Positions 223 through 26,882 of a stretch of 64,000 nt of DNA are shown one piece after another (within the stretch, counting starts at the first letter, position 1; the number at the start of each line of letters is the position of its first letter). Under the pieces are notes generated by a model. The model searched no databases, was not told where the DNA came from, and saw nothing but the letters and a program-made list of their open reading frames with translations. The stretch comes from Modestobacter roseus (GTDB lineage: Bacteria > Actinomycetota > Actinomycetes > Mycobacteriales > Geodermatophilaceae), in NCBI RefSeq assembly GCF_007994135.1, contig NZ_VLKF01000001.1, forward strand, positions 3,906,001-3,970,000, given 5' to 3'. A program made the position numbers and the translations under genes.

Positions 223-1656
223 ATGAGCATCGCCGAACACCCCCAGTCCGACTCCGCAGCCGTGCGGCTGACCGTCCCGCCCGACGCCGCGGCCCTCGAC
301 GCCCTGCGCGCCCGCGTGCACGGGCCGGTGTACCGGTCCGGTGACGAGGGGGCTGCCGCGGAGGCGGCCTGCTGGAACGTCGCCGTCACCCACCGGCCGG
401 CCGTCGTCGTGGGCGCGACCTGCGCCGCCGACGTGGCCGCCGCGGTCGCCTGGGCCGTCGAGCACGACCTCCCGGTCGCGGCCCACGCCACCGGGCACGG
501 TCCGGTGCACGCCGCGGTCGGCGGGCTGCTGATCTCCACCCGCCGGATGCAGGGGGTGGCCGTCGACCCCGTGCGCCGGGTCGCCCGGGTCCAGGCCGGG
601 TCGAAGTGGGCCGCGGTGCTGGCCGCCACCGAGGAGCACCGGCTGGTGCCGCTCGTCGGCTCCTCGTCCGACGTCGGGGTGGTCGGGTACACCCTCGGCG
701 GTGGGGTGGGGCCCTTCGCCCGCCGGTACGGGTTCGCGGCCGACTCCGTGGTCGCCGTCGACCTGGTCACCGCCGACGGCGAACTGCGCCGGCTGACCGC
801 CGACGAGGAGCCCGAGCTGTTCTGGGCGGTGCGCGGCAGCCGGTCCAACCTGGGTGTGGTGACCGCGCTGGAGATCCAGCTGTTCCCCGCGGACGAGATC
901 CACGCCGGTTGCGTCTTCTTCGCCGGGGCCGACGCCGCCACCGTGTTGCACACCTACCGGCAGTGGGCGCCGGCGCTGCCCGAGGAGGTCACCACCTCGG
1001 CGTCGGTGCTGCGCCTGCCGCCGCTGGAGACGTTGCCCGAGCCGCTGCGCGGCCAGCTGGTCGTGCAGGTGACCTTCGCCGCCACCGGTCTCGCCCCGGA
1101 GCGGTGCGCGGAGCTGCTGGCCCCGATGCAGGCCGCCGGGCGCATCCTGCTCGGGCACGTCGGGCGGATGCTGCCCACCGAGCTGGACGCGGTGCACATG
1201 GACCCGGTCGACCCGATGCCCACCTGGGAGCGGGGTGTGCTGCTGCGCGAGCTGACGGCGGGGACGGTGGACGCGCTGCTGGCCGCCGCCGGCCCCGGCG
1301 TCGACGTGCCGCTGGTCTCCGTGCAGCTGCGCCAGCTGGGCGGCGCCCTCGCCCGGCAGCCGCGCGTGCCCAGTGCGGTCGCCGGCCGGGACGGCGCCTG
1401 GGGGCTGATGGTCATCGCCCCGGGTGTCCCCGAGCTGGCCGACGTGGTGCCGGTCGTGGTGCGCGGGGTGCTCGGCGCCGCGGAGCCGTGGCGGGCGCCG
1501 GGCGGGTTGCTGAACTTCCTCGGCGCGGTCGACGGCCCCGACGACGTCGTCGCCGCCTTCCCCGCCGAGGTGGCCCAGCGGCTGGTGGCGGTCAAGCGCC
1601 GGGTCGACCCGCGCGGGGTCTTCACGGCCGGGCACGCGCTCACCGCGCGGAGCTGA
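223..1656 (+). CDS. FAD-binding oxidoreductase (PCMH/BBE type)
   Basis: A 477-residue flavoprotein of the vanillyl-alcohol-oxidase/berberine-bridge class, predicted to oxidise a small organic substrate. The ATG at 223 follows GAGGA at 213-217; the open frame extends upstream to 10, but that part runs through the operator region and is not protein-like. The N-terminal half has the PCMH FAD-binding fold, with RPAVVVGATCAADVAAAV, ATGHGP (its His is the usual covalent flavin-attachment position) and YTLGGGVGPFARRYGFAAD. SNLGVVTALEIQLFP follows at the domain end. The C-terminus KRRVDPRGVF matches the BBE tail, although the usual terminal aromatic motif is weak. The gene is divergent from a SARP-type regulator. 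Substrate cannot be inferred. Confidence 0.9.
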   Translation: MSIAEHPQSDSAAVRLTVPPDAAALDALRARVHGPVYRSGDEGAAAEAACWNVAVTHRPAVVVGATCAADVAAAVAWAVEHDLPVAAHATGHGPVHAAVGGLLISTRRMQGVAVDPVRRVARVQAGSKWAAVLAATEEHRLVPLVGSSSDVGVVGYTLGGGVGPFARRYGFAADSVVAVDLVTADGELRRLTADEEPELFWAVRGSRSNLGVVTALEIQLFPADEIHAGCVFFAGADAATVLHTYRQWAPALPEEVTTSASVLRLPPLETLPEPLRGQLVVQVTFAATGLAPERCAELLAPMQAAGRILLGHVGRMLPTELDAVHMDPVDPMPTWERGVLLRELTAGTVDALLAAAGPGVDVPLVSVQLRQLGGALARQPRVPSAVAGRDGAWGLMVIAPGVPELADVVPVVVRGVLGAAEPWRAPGGLLNFLGAVDGPDDVVAAFPAEVAQRLVAVKRRVDPRGVFTAGHALTARS

Positions 1657-1664
1657 CCCGAGCG

Positions 1665-1707
1665 GCCGGTCGGGTGCGGGGCCTGCCCCCTCCCGCACCC
1701 GACCGGC
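1665..1707 (+). terminator. Strong hairpin terminator after the FAD oxidoreductase
   Basis: Starting nine bases after the stop codon, a perfect 16-bp stem (arms 1665-1680 and 1692-1707) encloses an 11-nt loop. There is no T-run, which is usual for high-GC actinobacteria. Confidence 0.75.
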
Positions 1708-1767
1708 AGCGGTCAGGGCAGCCTCTCCTGGCTGGCGGGTCCCCGGCGGTGCTGTCAGCCTGGTCAC

Positions 1768-2058
1768 ATGACCCAGATGCTGGACATGCCCCAGGTGCAG
1801 GACTGCTCGGTCGACAGCTGTTCGTACAACGCCGAGCACACCTGCCACGCCGGCGCCATCACCGTCGGCGGCGACCACGCCCACTGCGGGACCTTCGTGG
1901 AGATCTCGTTCCGCGCCGGGCTCGACCGCACCGGCGTCGTCGGCGCCTGCCACCGCTCGGACTGCGTGCACAACGAGGCACTCGAGTGCCGCGCGTCCGC
2001 GGTGCAGGTCGGCTCGGGTGCCGACGCGGCCGACTGCCTGACCTACAAGCCGAGCTGA
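1768..2058 (+). CDS. DUF1540 cysteine-rich protein
   Basis: A 96-residue protein with two DUF1540 modules. Each has the pattern C-x4-C-x6-C-x-A-x(4-6)-V followed by a later Cys: the first is DCSVDSCSYNAEHTCHAGAITV ending in HCGTF (about residues 11-50), the second ACHRSDCVHNEALECRASAVQV ending in DCLTY (about residues 68-93). The eight cysteines suggest metal or redox binding; the function of the family is unknown. A CAGCCT box sits 6 nt before the ATG, so the gene may be leaderless. It converges on the iron-box-controlled gene at 2069. Confidence 0.85.
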   Translation: MTQMLDMPQVQDCSVDSCSYNAEHTCHAGAITVGGDHAHCGTFVEISFRAGLDRTGVVGACHRSDCVHNEALECRASAVQVGSGADAADCLTYKPS

Positions 2059-2068
2059 CCGCCTGAGT

Positions 2069-2497
2069 TCAGCCGACCAGCTGTTCCAGCTGGTCGGAGT
2101 CGGGCAGCTGCTCGACGACCAGCTCCGGCGTGCGCAGCAGCCCGTCGGCCACCGACAGCGCCGCGACCGGGTCGCCGTCGTCGACGAGGACGGCGCGGCC
2201 CGCCCCGGCCACACCCCGCAGCGCGGCGAGCACCGCGTGCCGGTCGCCTGCGGCCAGGCCCACGGTCAGGTGGTCGACCAGGACCACGGACGCCGTGCCG
2301 GTACGCGCCTGCTCGACGGCCGCCAGCCGGTGCGGCACGTCGTCCCCGGGGGTGGCGGTCAGCCGGACCACCGGCAGCGAGGCGTGGCCGCCGGCGCAGC
2401 GGGCGCTGCCCGGGTCCAGCGCCGCCATCGTGGCTGCCCGGGTGCCCGCCGGACCGACCAGGACCGTCACGCCGCCGACCGGCAGTCGCAGACCCAT
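2069..2497 (-). CDS. Degenerate ABC-ATPase-like protein, probably iron-regulated
   Basis: A 142-residue protein that follows the layout of an ABC transporter nucleotide-binding domain but lacks its catalytic motifs. VTVLVGPAGTRAAT stands where GPNGAGKST (Walker A) would be and has no lysine. VVLVDHLTVGL stands where LLDEPTAGLD (Walker B/D-loop) would be, with the catalytic Glu replaced by His. GRAVLVDDGDPVAALSVAD matches the H-loop segment but the His is missing. The helical signature domain is largely absent. ATP hydrolysis is therefore unlikely. The ATG at 2497 follows GTGGGG; an in-frame GTG at 2509 is an alternative. A DtxR/IdeR-type box lies only 24 nt upstream, so iron is expected to repress it. 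Its role could be that of a regulator or a sequestering subunit, but this is unproven. Confidence 0.6.
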   Translation of the reverse strand: MGLRLPVGGVTVLVGPAGTRAATMAALDPGSARCAGGHASLPVVRLTATPGDDVPHRLAAVEQARTGTASVVLVDHLTVGLAAGDRHAVLAALRGVAGAGRAVLVDDGDPVAALSVADGLLRTPELVVEQLPDSDQLEQLVG

Positions 2498-2520
2498 CGA
2501 GAACCCCACTTCACATCGAG

Positions 2521-2539
2521 TGAGGCGAGGCTAACCTGA
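2521..2539 (-). promoter_or_regulatory. DtxR/IdeR-type iron box
   Basis: TGAGGCGAGGCTAACCTGA matches the consensus TTAGGTTAGGCTAACCTAA at 15 of 19 positions, with an intact AGGCTAACCT half. It lies immediately upstream of the degenerate ABC-ATPase-like gene, and on that strand a TAGCCT -10-like element falls inside it, as expected for an Fe2+-dependent repressor site. Confidence 0.65.
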
Positions 2540-2567
2540 CCGCTCGACCTGGCGCCAGCCGCCCAGG

Positions 2568-2909
2568 TCAGGCGGGCGCCGCCCGGTCGTCGGGGCGCGG
2601 CAGCAGCCAGGAGAGGCCGGCGCGCTCCAGCGTCGGGCGCAGCGGGTCGGGCAGGTGGAGCACCTGCAGCTCGCTGCCCCGGCGCCGCGGCTTGCGGGCG
2701 AGGTGCACCAGCAGCTCCAGCCCGGCCGTCTCCAGTGCGGTGACCGCCTCGAGGTCGACCCGTTCCGGCCAGGACGACGGCGGCATCTCCAGCCGGAACC
2801 TGCGGACGGTCTCCCGGTCGATCCTGCCGCTGAGCCGGAGCAGGGAGCCGGCGCCGTCCTCGGTCAGCACGACCGCGCCCGATCCGCGGGGATCGGGGCT
2901 GCTGGTCAC
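2568..2909 (-). CDS. STAS-domain protein (anti-sigma factor antagonist-like)
   Basis: A 113-residue single STAS domain. SLLRLSGRIDRETVRRFR forms the first strands, and VDLEAVTALETAGLELLVHLA matches the conserved loop normally read as DLSGVTFIDSSGL. The usual phosphorylatable Ser in that loop is replaced by Glu/Thr (LETAGL), so classical SpoIIAA-type phospho-switching is uncertain. The GTG start at 2909 has GAGGAGGAG further upstream than normal. A PP2C-type phosphatase of the SpoIIE class is encoded at 50368, but no partner kinase is adjacent. Confidence 0.75.
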   Translation of the reverse strand: MTSSPDPRGSGAVVLTEDGAGSLLRLSGRIDRETVRRFRLEMPPSSWPERVDLEAVTALETAGLELLVHLARKPRRRGSELQVLHLPDPLRPTLERAGLSWLLPRPDDRAAPA

Positions 2910-3157
2910 GACGGACTGGGTACCCGCTCCTCCTCGCTGAAACGTGACCCGGAACGAACCCGCAGGTCAGTGCGGTGCGACTCGCCCGGGTGAGGACGTC
3001 GCCGGTCGGCAGGGGGTGGCGGGACGCCCGGAGGGCGATGGGGGAGCTGGGGTCAACGGGGCGGGCGACGGTGACCGTCCGCGCCCGGCCTGCCGATGAC
3101 GGTTGCAGAGCGCGCCGACTTCCCCGGCGCGGTCGTCGATCAGTGGGGGTCTCTGGC

Positions 3158-3784
3158 GTGAGCGCGTCGAACGGTCATCAGCCCAGGACGGCGGTGGGGC
3201 GGGATGCCGACGCCGCCTGGTGGCTGGTCGACGAGGACGGCGTCGTCCTGGCCGGGCCGTTCCCCAGCCAGCTGGACGCCGCGGTCGCGGGGCTGACCGC
3301 CGACGGCTGGTTCGCCGAGCCCGGCTACGGCGCGTGCCGGGCCGACGGGACGCTGTCGCGGCAGTTCTCCCCCGAGGACCGGAGCTGGCTCGCGCACCTG
3401 TCCTCACTGCTGGACCGGCTGGCCGACGACTGGGACCCGCTGATCTCCGACGCCGACCCGCTCACCGGGCTGGTCTGCGAGATCACCGCCGCGGTCGCGG
3501 AGGCCGGCCTGCCGCTGCACGACTGCGCGGGCCGCACGGCGGACCGCGCGCTGGGTGGCGTGTGCTTGACACCGAGCCCGGAGCGGGACGGGGTCGTCGT
3601 CTCCTGGACCCAGCACGACCGGACGTCGGTCGGGCGGGTGCGCGGCCCGGAGACCGACGCCGTCGTGCAGCAGACGATGAACGCCGCGGTGGCCGACGTG
3701 CTGTCAGCCTCGGGCTTCCTGGTGGAGGCCCTGGGTGCCGTGGCCGTCGTCCGCGCCGCCGACAATCCCACCACCTGGGAATGA
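3158..3784 (+). CDS. Hypothetical actinobacterial protein
   Basis: A protein of about 208 residues that I do not recognise. The N-terminal segment WWLVDEDGVVLAGPFPSQLDAAVAGL resembles small actinobacterial proteins that take a per-record or per-cell input, but no catalytic motif is visible. No signal peptide or membrane segment is seen. The frame is open upstream to 2975; the GTG at 3158, preceded by GGGGG, is chosen because upstream residues are arginine-rich and not protein-like. A GTG at 3143 is an alternative. Confidence 0.55.
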   Translation: MSASNGHQPRTAVGRDADAAWWLVDEDGVVLAGPFPSQLDAAVAGLTADGWFAEPGYGACRADGTLSRQFSPEDRSWLAHLSSLLDRLADDWDPLISDADPLTGLVCEITAAVAEAGLPLHDCAGRTADRALGGVCLTPSPERDGVVVSWTQHDRTSVGRVRGPETDAVVQQTMNAAVADVLSASGFLVEALGAVAVVRAADNPTTWE

Positions 3785-22971: not shown

Positions 22972-24761
<1,790 letters not shown>

Positions 24762-24783
24762 TCAAATTTCGACAGGGTTGAAG

Positions 24784-26355
24784 CTAGTGGCGATGCGTGC
24801 GGCGCAGGGCTAGTTCCGCTTGCGCTCGAAGCGCATCCGCGTCATCGCGGGACACTGCTCCAAGGTTGTACAACCGATCGGCAAGACTGGCGATGCTCAC
24901 CCGCAGCCTCGCAGCAATAGATTGCGCGGTCCTGTAGTTCGCGAGATCGCCGTCGGTACGCTTGGCGGCATCAAGAAGAAGTTCTCGAGGCATCAATAGT
25001 GCAGCGGCGAAGGCATTGGCGCGTTGCTCGATCGACTTAGGGGCCCATGGTCCACTTGAAACTGCAAGTGTGGAGCCACTCTGGCGATCCAGCAGCAAGT
25101 GCGCCAGCTCGTGAGCCAGGGTGAAACGGTGCACCGTAATGTGGTTGCCGCGAGAGTAGTTCTCGTTAGCGACAACTACCGCATGGCCGAAAGTGTCGTA
25201 CACGGAGACGCCTCGAAGAAGTCGGTCGGACAACTTCAGTGTCCTATGACTGACCGACCAAGCGTCGAGCAATGACTTGATATCGACATGCCCGTCTTGC
25301 ACGTGTCGATCTTTTGCAAATTGCTCGTAAGCTCTTTCGCCCAGGTCTGATCCGATCTCGCCGGGAGTGAGACCGTTCATATTGTCTTCGTCTTCGACCC
25401 ACCCTCCGGGCACGGTGGCAACTGTGTCACTCGGGTGCGCCGCAAGTGACGTAAGAACCATTACGTCGCCTGAACTGATAGTGGGACTTGTCGAGCCGAA
25501 CAGGAGAGCCAGCCGAGCGCCAGCCAAAACCAGCTGACCCGGTTCCGGCTCACCTACGGCGCCGGCGATGTCGGAGGGGTCAACTGCTGCCAACGAGGTC
25601 TCCACCTCCTGCCAAAGAGTGCGAAATCCCTCTTGATCCGGTCCAGCTCCGCTGAGCCACGCGAATCGAGCAAGGTAGCGACTCGGGCCGTCCTTTAGTG
25701 ACTCGATCACGTCGCAAAGCGTTCTGATTCGTTCTGACTCAGGTTGCAGATCAGACAGCTTTGCTGTGACGGCGCTAAGAATGTCGAACAGTGACTGGCT
25801 GGCGCTAAAGAGGTCAACCTTCGCGACCCCTTCGATGGAGTAGGCGAAGTGGCTCGGAGTTCCCGGGTCTCGTGTTAGTCCCACGCTCACCTCGAGCGAG
25901 TCCTGGCTCCGACGTAGCCACAAGTCTGGAAGTAGTCCTCCTTCCGCTCCGGCGCGAAGGGAGTGGCGGTTCCGCCACTCATAGACCTGCGTCATCGCTG
26001 CCCAGTCCGGTTCGTCGTCCAGGCCGAATGTCCTGCGATCGGCTTCGAGCGCGGCCCTGGATGCGCGGTCGGTCAACGTTGGGAAAGGCAGTCGTTCCTC
26101 GTGAAAGATGGCGTCCCAGTTTTCCGTCAGCCACTCGATCAACGGAAGAAGATACCAGTGGGCGCCAGTGAGGAGCTCCCCCTGCTCTTCGTGCATGCAG
26201 ACATTGCGGCCGTTCATCCAGATGCGAAGAGCGCCCCAGGATGCGCGCTCGTCCGGGTCGACCATCGAGTCGTCGACCCCATCGTCGAGCAGGCTCATCT
26301 CGATGGCGAAAGTCGACGTGTCGCCTGACAGGTAGGACCACTTGATGGCGCTCAC
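24784..26355 (-). CDS. ImmA/IrrE-family metallopeptidase with large unknown N-terminal region
   Basis: A 523-residue protein. The C-terminal zincin has HELAH at residues 415-419 (HRFTLAHELAHLLLDRQSG), a probable third ligand Glu443 in IEQRANAFAAALLMP, and a helical tail (IAARLRVSIASLADRL) that resembles a helix-turn-helix. The 380-residue N-terminal part (WGALRIWMNGRNVCMHEE, HWYLLPLIEWLTENWDAIFHEERLP) is unfamiliar. ImmA/IrrE peptidases typically cleave repressors or antitoxins. Base composition is low: a sampled line (25321-25380) counts 57% G+C against 73% in guaB1. GTG 26355 overlaps the previous stop as GTGA and has GAGAGG upstream. Recent horizontal acquisition is likely. Confidence 0.85.
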   Translation of the reverse strand: MSAIKWSYLSGDTSTFAIEMSLLDDGVDDSMVDPDERASWGALRIWMNGRNVCMHEEQGELLTGAHWYLLPLIEWLTENWDAIFHEERLPFPTLTDRASRAALEADRRTFGLDDEPDWAAMTQVYEWRNRHSLRAGAEGGLLPDLWLRRSQDSLEVSVGLTRDPGTPSHFAYSIEGVAKVDLFSASQSLFDILSAVTAKLSDLQPESERIRTLCDVIESLKDGPSRYLARFAWLSGAGPDQEGFRTLWQEVETSLAAVDPSDIAGAVGEPEPGQLVLAGARLALLFGSTSPTISSGDVMVLTSLAAHPSDTVATVPGGWVEDEDNMNGLTPGEIGSDLGERAYEQFAKDRHVQDGHVDIKSLLDAWSVSHRTLKLSDRLLRGVSVYDTFGHAVVVANENYSRGNHITVHRFTLAHELAHLLLDRQSGSTLAVSSGPWAPKSIEQRANAFAAALLMPRELLLDAAKRTDGDLANYRTAQSIAARLRVSIASLADRLYNLGAVSRDDADALRAQAELALRRTHRH

Positions 26356-26672
26356 GATTGACCTCTCTTAAAAACTCGGGGTGTCACTACCTGCTGCTGA
26401 ACCCAATGTTTCTTGATTGGCACAGGAACGCTGTGCCATGCAACGGGAAAGCCGTGCCAAACATCGTCGCCCTCTGCGTTTACTGTGTTGGTTGGCTTGG
26501 CTTGGAACGCGTCGGTGCCGTCGGTCGCGAATCGACGACGAGGGTTCTTAGGATCTGAGACGCTCTGTGCGAGCAGGGTCGGGCCGTCGGCTCCCTTGGG
26601 GCAGCGGCTTCCTTGGGCGCCGCGCTGCCAGGGGTCTCGATGGCGAGGGTTGCCCTCGTACGCCAGTCCCAC
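26352..26672 (-). CDS. Small partner protein of the ImmA/IrrE peptidase
   Basis: A 106-residue protein. YEGNPRHRDPWQRGAQGSRC and VWHGFPVAWHSVPVPIKKHW recall a bacterial family with a YEGNP opening and a late W/YHG-P segment, whose function I do not know. No transmembrane segment. The GTG at 26672 has GGAGG at 26681-26677; the frame continues upstream to 26777 but crosses a strong terminator and is not coding there. Its TGA overlaps the peptidase GTG, so the pair is translationally coupled. Codon use and G+C are as atypical as in the peptidase. Confidence 0.7.
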   Translation of the reverse strand: MGLAYEGNPRHRDPWQRGAQGSRCPKGADGPTLLAQSVSDPKNPRRRFATDGTDAFQAKPTNTVNAEGDDVWHGFPVAWHSVPVPIKKHWVQQQVVTPRVFKRGQS

Positions 26673-26701: not shown

Positions 26702-26736
26702 AAAGCCCCAACTCGGACATAGCGAGTTGGGGCTTT
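26702..26736. terminator. Perfect hairpin isolating the low-GC module from serS
   Basis: A 14-bp stem (AAAGCCCCAACTCG at 26702-26715 with its complement at 26723-26736) encloses a 7-nt loop and is flanked by A/T bases on both arms. It lies upstream of the small partner gene and could stop transcription in both directions. Confidence 0.8.
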
Positions 26737-26882
26737 GGGGGCTCACGTGTTGCCGAGCCGCTTGGAACGTACACCAAGTGACGTCCGGTTGCATGGGACT
26801 GACTCGGTCGAGGTAGATGTCCCTCGCCGGCGGAGCTGCGTCAAGGCGCGGCCAGCGTGGGGGATCAGATCAGGCGGGCACC

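Follow-up and report, generated by a model that had tools for sequence, protein, structure and literature searches.

A putative toxin–antitoxin pair with an ImmA/IrrE-type zincin and a CdiA-CT-like small protein between guaB1 and serS of Modestobacter roseus

Two overlapping genes are present between guaB1 and serS of Modestobacter roseus, and the question that they raise is whether they form a unit of foreign origin and, if so, what this unit might do. The window, by which is meant the whole 64-kb stretch of DNA that was analysed, had previously been read from its letters only; the names guaB1 and serS come from this sequence-only reading and agree with the ORFs by eye. The coordinates, the lengths, and the GTGA overlap that it gave for the pair are correct.

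24784-26355, minus strand: large gene, GTG start, 523 aa, putative antitoxin
26352-26672, minus strand: small gene, GTG start with GGAGG just 5', 106 aa, putative toxin
26352-26355, minus strand: GTGA overlap of the small-gene stop and the large-gene start
24750-24783, minus strand: 34-bp spacer that separates the large gene from guaB1 and includes a ribosome site, GAGGAG; at several junctions without the pair a GGGACACTGGGG-like sequence occupies this place before guaB1

The gene guaB1 is on the same strand as the pair, 34 bp 3' of the large gene, and serS is divergent, starting 223 bp upstream of the small gene. The GC content is 0.598 for the large gene and 0.611 for the small gene, against 0.745 for guaB1 and 0.739 for serS. 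At the third codon position the values are 0.66 and 0.63, against 0.996 and 0.982, with a range of 0.976-0.996 in five nearby genes, these being the two flanking genes and three others. When the whole 64-kb window was scanned in 1572-bp windows at 200-bp steps, the GC content was below 0.66 only in those starting at 24001-25601. Between guaB1 and serS the two genes form a foreign island, as had been proposed, the 57% G+C quoted earlier being that of one sampled line. There were no tRNA genes found in the 64-kb window, and three Rfam matches near the module were each under the gathering score and were rejected. In its own genome the large gene has a single match at E up to 0.01.

A comparison of this junction across relatives had been suggested as a check, and it shows a patchy distribution. 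While guaB1 is present in all 23 genomes of the genus, 18 of which are at least 90% complete, the pair is present in two of them, the window genome and G086, at the same junction; universal conservation with matching composition was not seen. In 17 of the 21 genomes without the pair serS is within 1.5 kb of guaB1, with 58-286 bp between the two genes in 13 and an insert of 0.6-1.0 kb of native GC content in the other 4. By eye, these inserts are a cupin and MarR-like pair (L111, L127), a cupin (L115), and something else (L113). In the remaining four genomes serS is about 5-7 kb off in three and was not found in L132. The guaB1-serS junction is a variable spot of the genus (L111, L113, L115, L127, L129-L132).

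In a guaB1 tree of 23 sequences, one of them partial, the window genome groups with G099, G091, and G093, and G086 groups with G103, so that the two carriers are in distant parts of the genus and their neighbours lack the pair. Between the window and G086, dS is 1.2 for the small gene and 1.8 for the large gene versus 0.26-0.30 for serS and guaB1, a contrast that is no proof on its own because the flanking-gene values may be held down by extreme codon bias. The dS contrast and the tree together favour separate acquisitions over descent with many losses, on the limited evidence of one tree of one gene that is itself beside the insertion. It is thus probable that the pair was gained more than once in the genus, separately at one site. 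The dN/dS values for the same comparison are about 0.13 and 0.08 for the two genes, both of which are under purifying selection between the window and G086.

Including the window, seven distinct intact pairs were found.

Window, minus strand: GTGA overlap
G086 (L011): same genus, same guaB1-serS junction
G125 (L012): another family of the same order, genes 1 bp apart
Thiodictyon plasmid pTs417 (L010)
Agrobacterium plasmids (two, L016 and L017): one pair under identical protein accessions, different upstream neighbours
G411 (L141): other family of the phylum
G494 (L142): other family of the phylum

The small gene is always followed by the large gene, and the two overlap or are 1 bp apart, which bears out the earlier description of a compact, coupled pair that is toxin-antitoxin-like. 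The genes that flank the pair on the plasmids of Thiodictyon and Agrobacterium, and also in G125, are others than guaB1 and serS. Genes of MazE/PemK type are annotated near the pair on the Thiodictyon plasmid (L010 8470-9017), as are genes of VapC/Phd type on one of the two Agrobacterium plasmids (L016 7633-8306).

There is asymmetric decay at two loci, in each of which the small gene is broken and the large gene is kept. In a Chromatiaceae MAG (L102) an in-frame stop interrupts the small gene while the large gene is open, and in G399 the small gene is cut down to its end while the large gene is kept and reaches the contig edge, with what is probably the rest at the end of another contig. The opposite, a broken large gene with the small gene kept, was not seen among the loci examined. 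A more distant large protein in Azospirillum has another upstream partner (P0003, 262 aa) without similarity to the small protein, and at L149 in G399 the upstream partner is weakly similar to the small family, in collinear fashion (E 0.005); these other partners fit with partner swapping and weaken the case for one-to-one coupling. The L149 locus (1477-3413, minus strand) has a divergent large protein that has lost its zinc motif, next to this weakly similar partner, and the two are perhaps a second branch of the module.

Few genomes have the pair. Searches with the single small protein sequence detected genuine members in 3 of 298 genomes within the order (its own, G086, and G125) and in 1 of 396 genomes of the phylum (its own), and a profile search found them in 2 of 394 genomes of the class (its own and G125); these samples overlap, and the counts are lower bounds, since the phylum search missed G411 and G494, which are probably in that sample. 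An N-terminal profile matched 4 of 246 genomes of the phylum (its own, G399, G411, and G494). The large protein has matches in 3 of 112 genomes of its family, with G102 matched via the zincin region only, and in 5 of 120 genomes of the G125 family, where four of the matches are likewise limited to the zincin region. Its profile matched 1 of 3 genomes in the family of G399 and 3 of 21 in that of G494, two of the latter by the zincin region only. The matches of G102, L135-L138, L150, L152, and L153 are confined to the zincin region.

Outside these samples, 2 of 72,556 plasmid records matched the window large protein and none matched the window small protein, the Agrobacterium plasmids being reached only with the Thiodictyon proteins as queries. 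None of 50,697 phage records matched, a result that bears on phage carriage only. In a viral-contig scan with the large-protein alignment the matches listed, at least 80 loci, are all within residues 344-519. Pattern scans of genome contigs gave no relatives among 9 matches and then one, the Chromatiaceae MAG, among 99. Two further candidates, one each from the order and the phylum searches with the small protein, were rejected as chance, the frame in G293 running through a CRISPR-looking repeat array and that in G488 being a fragment with an internal stop. By eye, the array in G293 (L013 8400-10700) is dense and lies beside a Cas3-like ORF.

The large protein has a Pfam Peptidase_M78 domain at residues 409-495 (E=7.7e-16, 58.5 bits against a cut-off of 22), which confirms the ImmA/IrrE-type zincin with HELAH that had been recognised by eye. 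The zinc ligands of M78 peptidases are HExxH and a downstream glutamate, and with HELAH at 415-419 and E443 the window protein has the full set. Its domain resembles a phage transcription-regulator family and IrrE structures, and is matched by the PADLOC models CapP (E=1.7e-20, residues 341-499) and RmrA (best E 7.4e-14, residues 393-510); the NCBIfam model antitox_spr1629 reaches 41.7 of 335 bits, far under its cut-off. The N-terminal 400 residues or so have no Pfam match above cut-off, a weak hit to PAS_PdeA at 253-302 having an E value of 0.43, and no HTH was matched in the large protein (Pfam, E up to 10). In contrast, L150 has the form HTH_3 plus M78, and the G125 large protein has a sub-threshold HTH_50 hit only (E 0.04). 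An AlphaFold model of the large protein, from a shallow alignment of the window and L102 sequences, has a pLDDT of 34, too poor for use.

The HExxH and the downstream glutamate are kept in eight of the nine aligned large proteins (alignment A10). The exception is L141 in G411, which has RALGH in place of HExxH and no downstream glutamate, and L149 in G399, outside this alignment, has RALWH and has lost HExxH while still being recognised as M78 (26 bits against the cut-off of 22). The loss of the zinc motif in L141 and L149 indicates that catalysis is seemingly dispensable in some lineages. Elsewhere in the window a frame at 22972-23400 on the minus strand, 3' of guaB1, ends in the zinc-protease-like motif HEIAHHFG, and the same sequence is 3' of guaB1 in G086 (L011 12156-12581).

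No model of Pfam, NCBIfam, or PADLOC matches the small protein at E up to 10, an HTH included (Pfam), and none of PHROGs does at E up to 1. In plasmid records it is labelled 'hypothetical protein' and the large protein only 'ImmA/IrrE family metallo-endopeptidase'. Across the seven aligned members of the small family Y5, H11, C24, P25, L33, A58, H73, and P76 are invariant. An AlphaFold model of the small protein alone has a pLDDT of 57, too poor for use, the alignment being shallow. A glycine-rich ORF with a TTWHGWPV end on each of two viral contigs was rejected as a chance match, and because such matches occur the WHG-P motif by itself is no evidence of relationship.

When a profile of five small proteins was used to search the PDB, the sole match at E up to 10 was 5t87_E, 'CdiA toxin', at E 0.11; with the profile of seven sequences 5t87 falls to E 0.62 and second place. 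With 5t87 alone as the query, 2 of 296 genomes from the class of the window were seen to have long ORFs that end in a related domain (L104 and L105, the latter looking Rhs-Hint-like by eye), and a Nonomuraea ORF (L103) has such a domain as well. A profile of 5t87, L103, L104, and L105, A7, was made with no small protein included; two Neisseria gonorrhoeae records that also have the CdiA-type domain were left out of it. Aligned with hhalign, the small family and A7 score 34.3 (P 1.2e-5, probability 81%), while the best of 200 column-shuffled controls scores 17.0. With seven small proteins the score is 32.1, where 150 shuffles reach at most 17.8, and it is 29.3 without 5t87 itself. The aligned region has 55-58 columns with (W/Y)HG....W at its end; a 66-residue piece yields nothing in Pfam at E up to 10.

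Reciprocal searches used 11,811 ORFs from 146 sequences, the window and 145 loci, some of which overlap. In this set A7 ranks its own three loci first and, directly behind them, small proteins from G086 (E 0.005), the window (E 0.025), and G125 (E 0.13), with those of Thiodictyon and the MAG reached only at E about 5. In the other direction the CdiA-type ORF L103 of Nonomuraea comes up at E 1.5e-4 with A1, a small-protein profile; L104 is found by small-protein profiles at E 0.65-1.6, ranked under two phage-contig chance matches, and L105 is absent. The two most divergent members, L141 and L142, alone score 11.8 against A7, under the best shuffles, and in a scan of its own genome with A7 the window small gene is absent and another place is listed at E 0.5. 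The small protein is likely, although not certain, to be homologous to the 5t87-type CdiA toxin domain. By eye, the genes that follow the CdiA-type toxins in L104 (1145-1561, minus strand) and L105 (about 1764-2161, plus strand) are alike, and they are perhaps the immunity genes of these toxins.

The CdiA-CT type of 5t87 is cd20695, on which Rickettsia toxins have been modelled (PMC9111745); in the available portions of that paper no activity is given for it. Many characterised CDI toxins are described as RNases (PMC9111745, PMC9086364), and by analogy the small protein is probably a nuclease. Compared with the CdiA-CT of Cupriavidus taiwanensis, from which 5t87 comes, the small protein shares the aligned columns and the motif at their end. 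It differs in being free-standing, at about 105-148 aa, without delivery domains and with a zincin gene behind it, and in having an extra N-terminal Y...H...CP part.

Among systems that use an ImmA domain, the nearest appear to be the RosmerTA-like ones (RmrA/RmrT; NetFlax node D25, ImmA). As far as the available text of PMC10440598 describes them, the ImmA domain is an antitoxin hub with diverse toxins, the toxin is first in 58%, and a small N-terminal HTH is 'often' before the ImmA domain and is therefore not strictly defining. The likeness here consists of an ImmA/IrrE domain in the presumed antitoxin, an adjoining putative toxin gene, and a small gene that comes first, matching the common toxin-first order. 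The differences are the roughly 400 Pfam-less residues of the large protein with no recognised N-terminal HTH, a partner that is CdiA-CT-like and has no PADLOC match, RmrT included, at E up to 10, and the loss of the zinc motif in two relatives of the large protein. A 2009 paper (PMC2701414) describes COG2856-Xre fusions that have PIN or RelE toxins next to them. The pairs CapP/CapH, IrrE/DdrO, and ImmA/ImmR share the M78 zincin domain, but among the two genes here there is neither an HTH repressor nor a CBASS gene. A system that includes both proteins was not found in the searches run, nor was a description of this gene pair found in open-licence PMC papers. The pair is best read as a variant of the RosmerTA/ImmA-antitoxin kind, apparently unnamed.

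On balance, these observations favour a mobile toxin-antitoxin module in which the small protein is the toxin and the large protein the antitoxin. That the toxin gene comes first, that the antitoxin gene overlaps it, that other partners occur, and that the toxin can be lost where the antitoxin persists are all in keeping with such a module, for which we infer toxicity, neutralisation, a direction of control, and a trigger. The small protein would be a stand-alone toxin related to the CdiA-CT domain of 5t87, which the N-terminal part of the large protein would most likely bind and neutralise. The ImmA/IrrE domain, where intact, most likely senses a trigger or times the release, one way being to cleave itself or its partner. 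Since the zinc motif is lost in some relatives, binding, and not proteolysis, would be the core function. Both PprI/IrrE and CapP are reported to be activated by ssDNA (available text of PMC10904395), which makes DNA damage or infection a reasonable trigger.

If infection were the trigger, the pair might serve in anti-phage defence proper. This is compatible with the toxin-antitoxin explanation and is possible, although somewhat doubtful: some ImmA-antitoxin pairs of the RosmerTA kind were shown to be active against phages, one system with an ImmA antitoxin being protective (PMC10440598, in the text available), and the pair is patchy and partly plasmid-borne, but the PADLOC matches cover the C-terminal region of the large protein only, the small one having none.

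The region between serS and the small gene and that in front of guaB1 bear on how the module may be expressed, and on whether it might be a regulatory switch.

26702-26736: inverted repeat, 14-bp stem and 7-nt loop, possible leader hairpin or terminator
26766-26779, minus strand: ACTTGGTGTACGTT box, identical in both carriers of this junction

The sequence-only reading had a perfect terminator isolating the module on its upstream side. The 14-bp inverted repeat is there, and a 71-nt stretch that includes the hairpin has a fold z of -4.3, which none of 200 shuffles equals. That it isolates the module need not follow, there being no T-run after the hairpin and a candidate -10 box, TACGTT within ACTTGGTGTACGTT, upstream of it; the hairpin may instead be in the module's own leader, and if TACGTT is the -10 box it would lie in the transcript and may attenuate it. 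Terminator and promoter scans of this region found nothing. The two carriers share ACTTGGTGTACGTT, a GGCTC...GAGCC element, the 14-bp stem, and the GGAGG before the small gene, with the loop changed in G086. Several empty junctions have the GGGACACTGGGG-like sequence right at the ATG of guaB1, where both carriers have the ribosome site instead, and with its leader so replaced guaB1 may have become a third gene in the operon of the module.

This arrangement, with guaB1 34 bp 3' in the same direction and without the leader found in relatives, would fit a switch like ImmA/ImmR or IrrE/DdrO, in which the small protein or a distant repressor is cut by the zincin and downstream genes, for example guaB1, are thereby controlled, with no toxin involved. 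The likeness of the M78 domain to CapP, the RmrA models, the sub-cut-off spr1629, the phage regulator family, and IrrE structures is also consistent with it. Such a switch is nevertheless quite unlikely, as there is no HTH match in the window proteins and only the sub-threshold HTH_50 of the G125 large protein, the pair has other neighbours on the plasmids and in G125, and the zinc motif is gone in two relatives. Simple cleavage of a regulator, the usual role that the sequence-only reading gave for such peptidases, is not favoured for the first and last of these reasons. More improbable still are reversed roles, with a harmful zincin protein and the small protein its antitoxin or inhibitor, as predicted for COG2856 toxins beside Xre antitoxins by Makarova et al. 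2009 (available text of PMC2701414) and in keeping with the complete zinc ligands of the window protein, since it is the small gene that is the broken one (at two loci only), the zinc motif is lost in two large-protein relatives, and the small protein, without an HTH match, is similar to a toxin domain. Both of these rank below the explanation in which the small protein is the toxin.

With the small protein as toxin, a fuller history can be tentatively suggested, which we consider rather unlikely as a whole: a toxin domain of the kind that is delivered to rivals would have turned into an intracellular mobile toxin-antitoxin module whose zincin antitoxin is a non-catalytic binder in some lineages, and the cassette would have landed at least twice in the gap between serS and guaB1 and taken over guaB1 transcription, which would couple a housekeeping purine gene to the module.

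This two-gene module spans more than one phylum, and it links the toxin domains of intercellular CDI and polymorphic toxin systems with intracellular ImmA-type antitoxins. The presence of both intact and degenerate zinc versions in one family makes the question of proteolysis versus binding in ImmA antitoxins a testable one.
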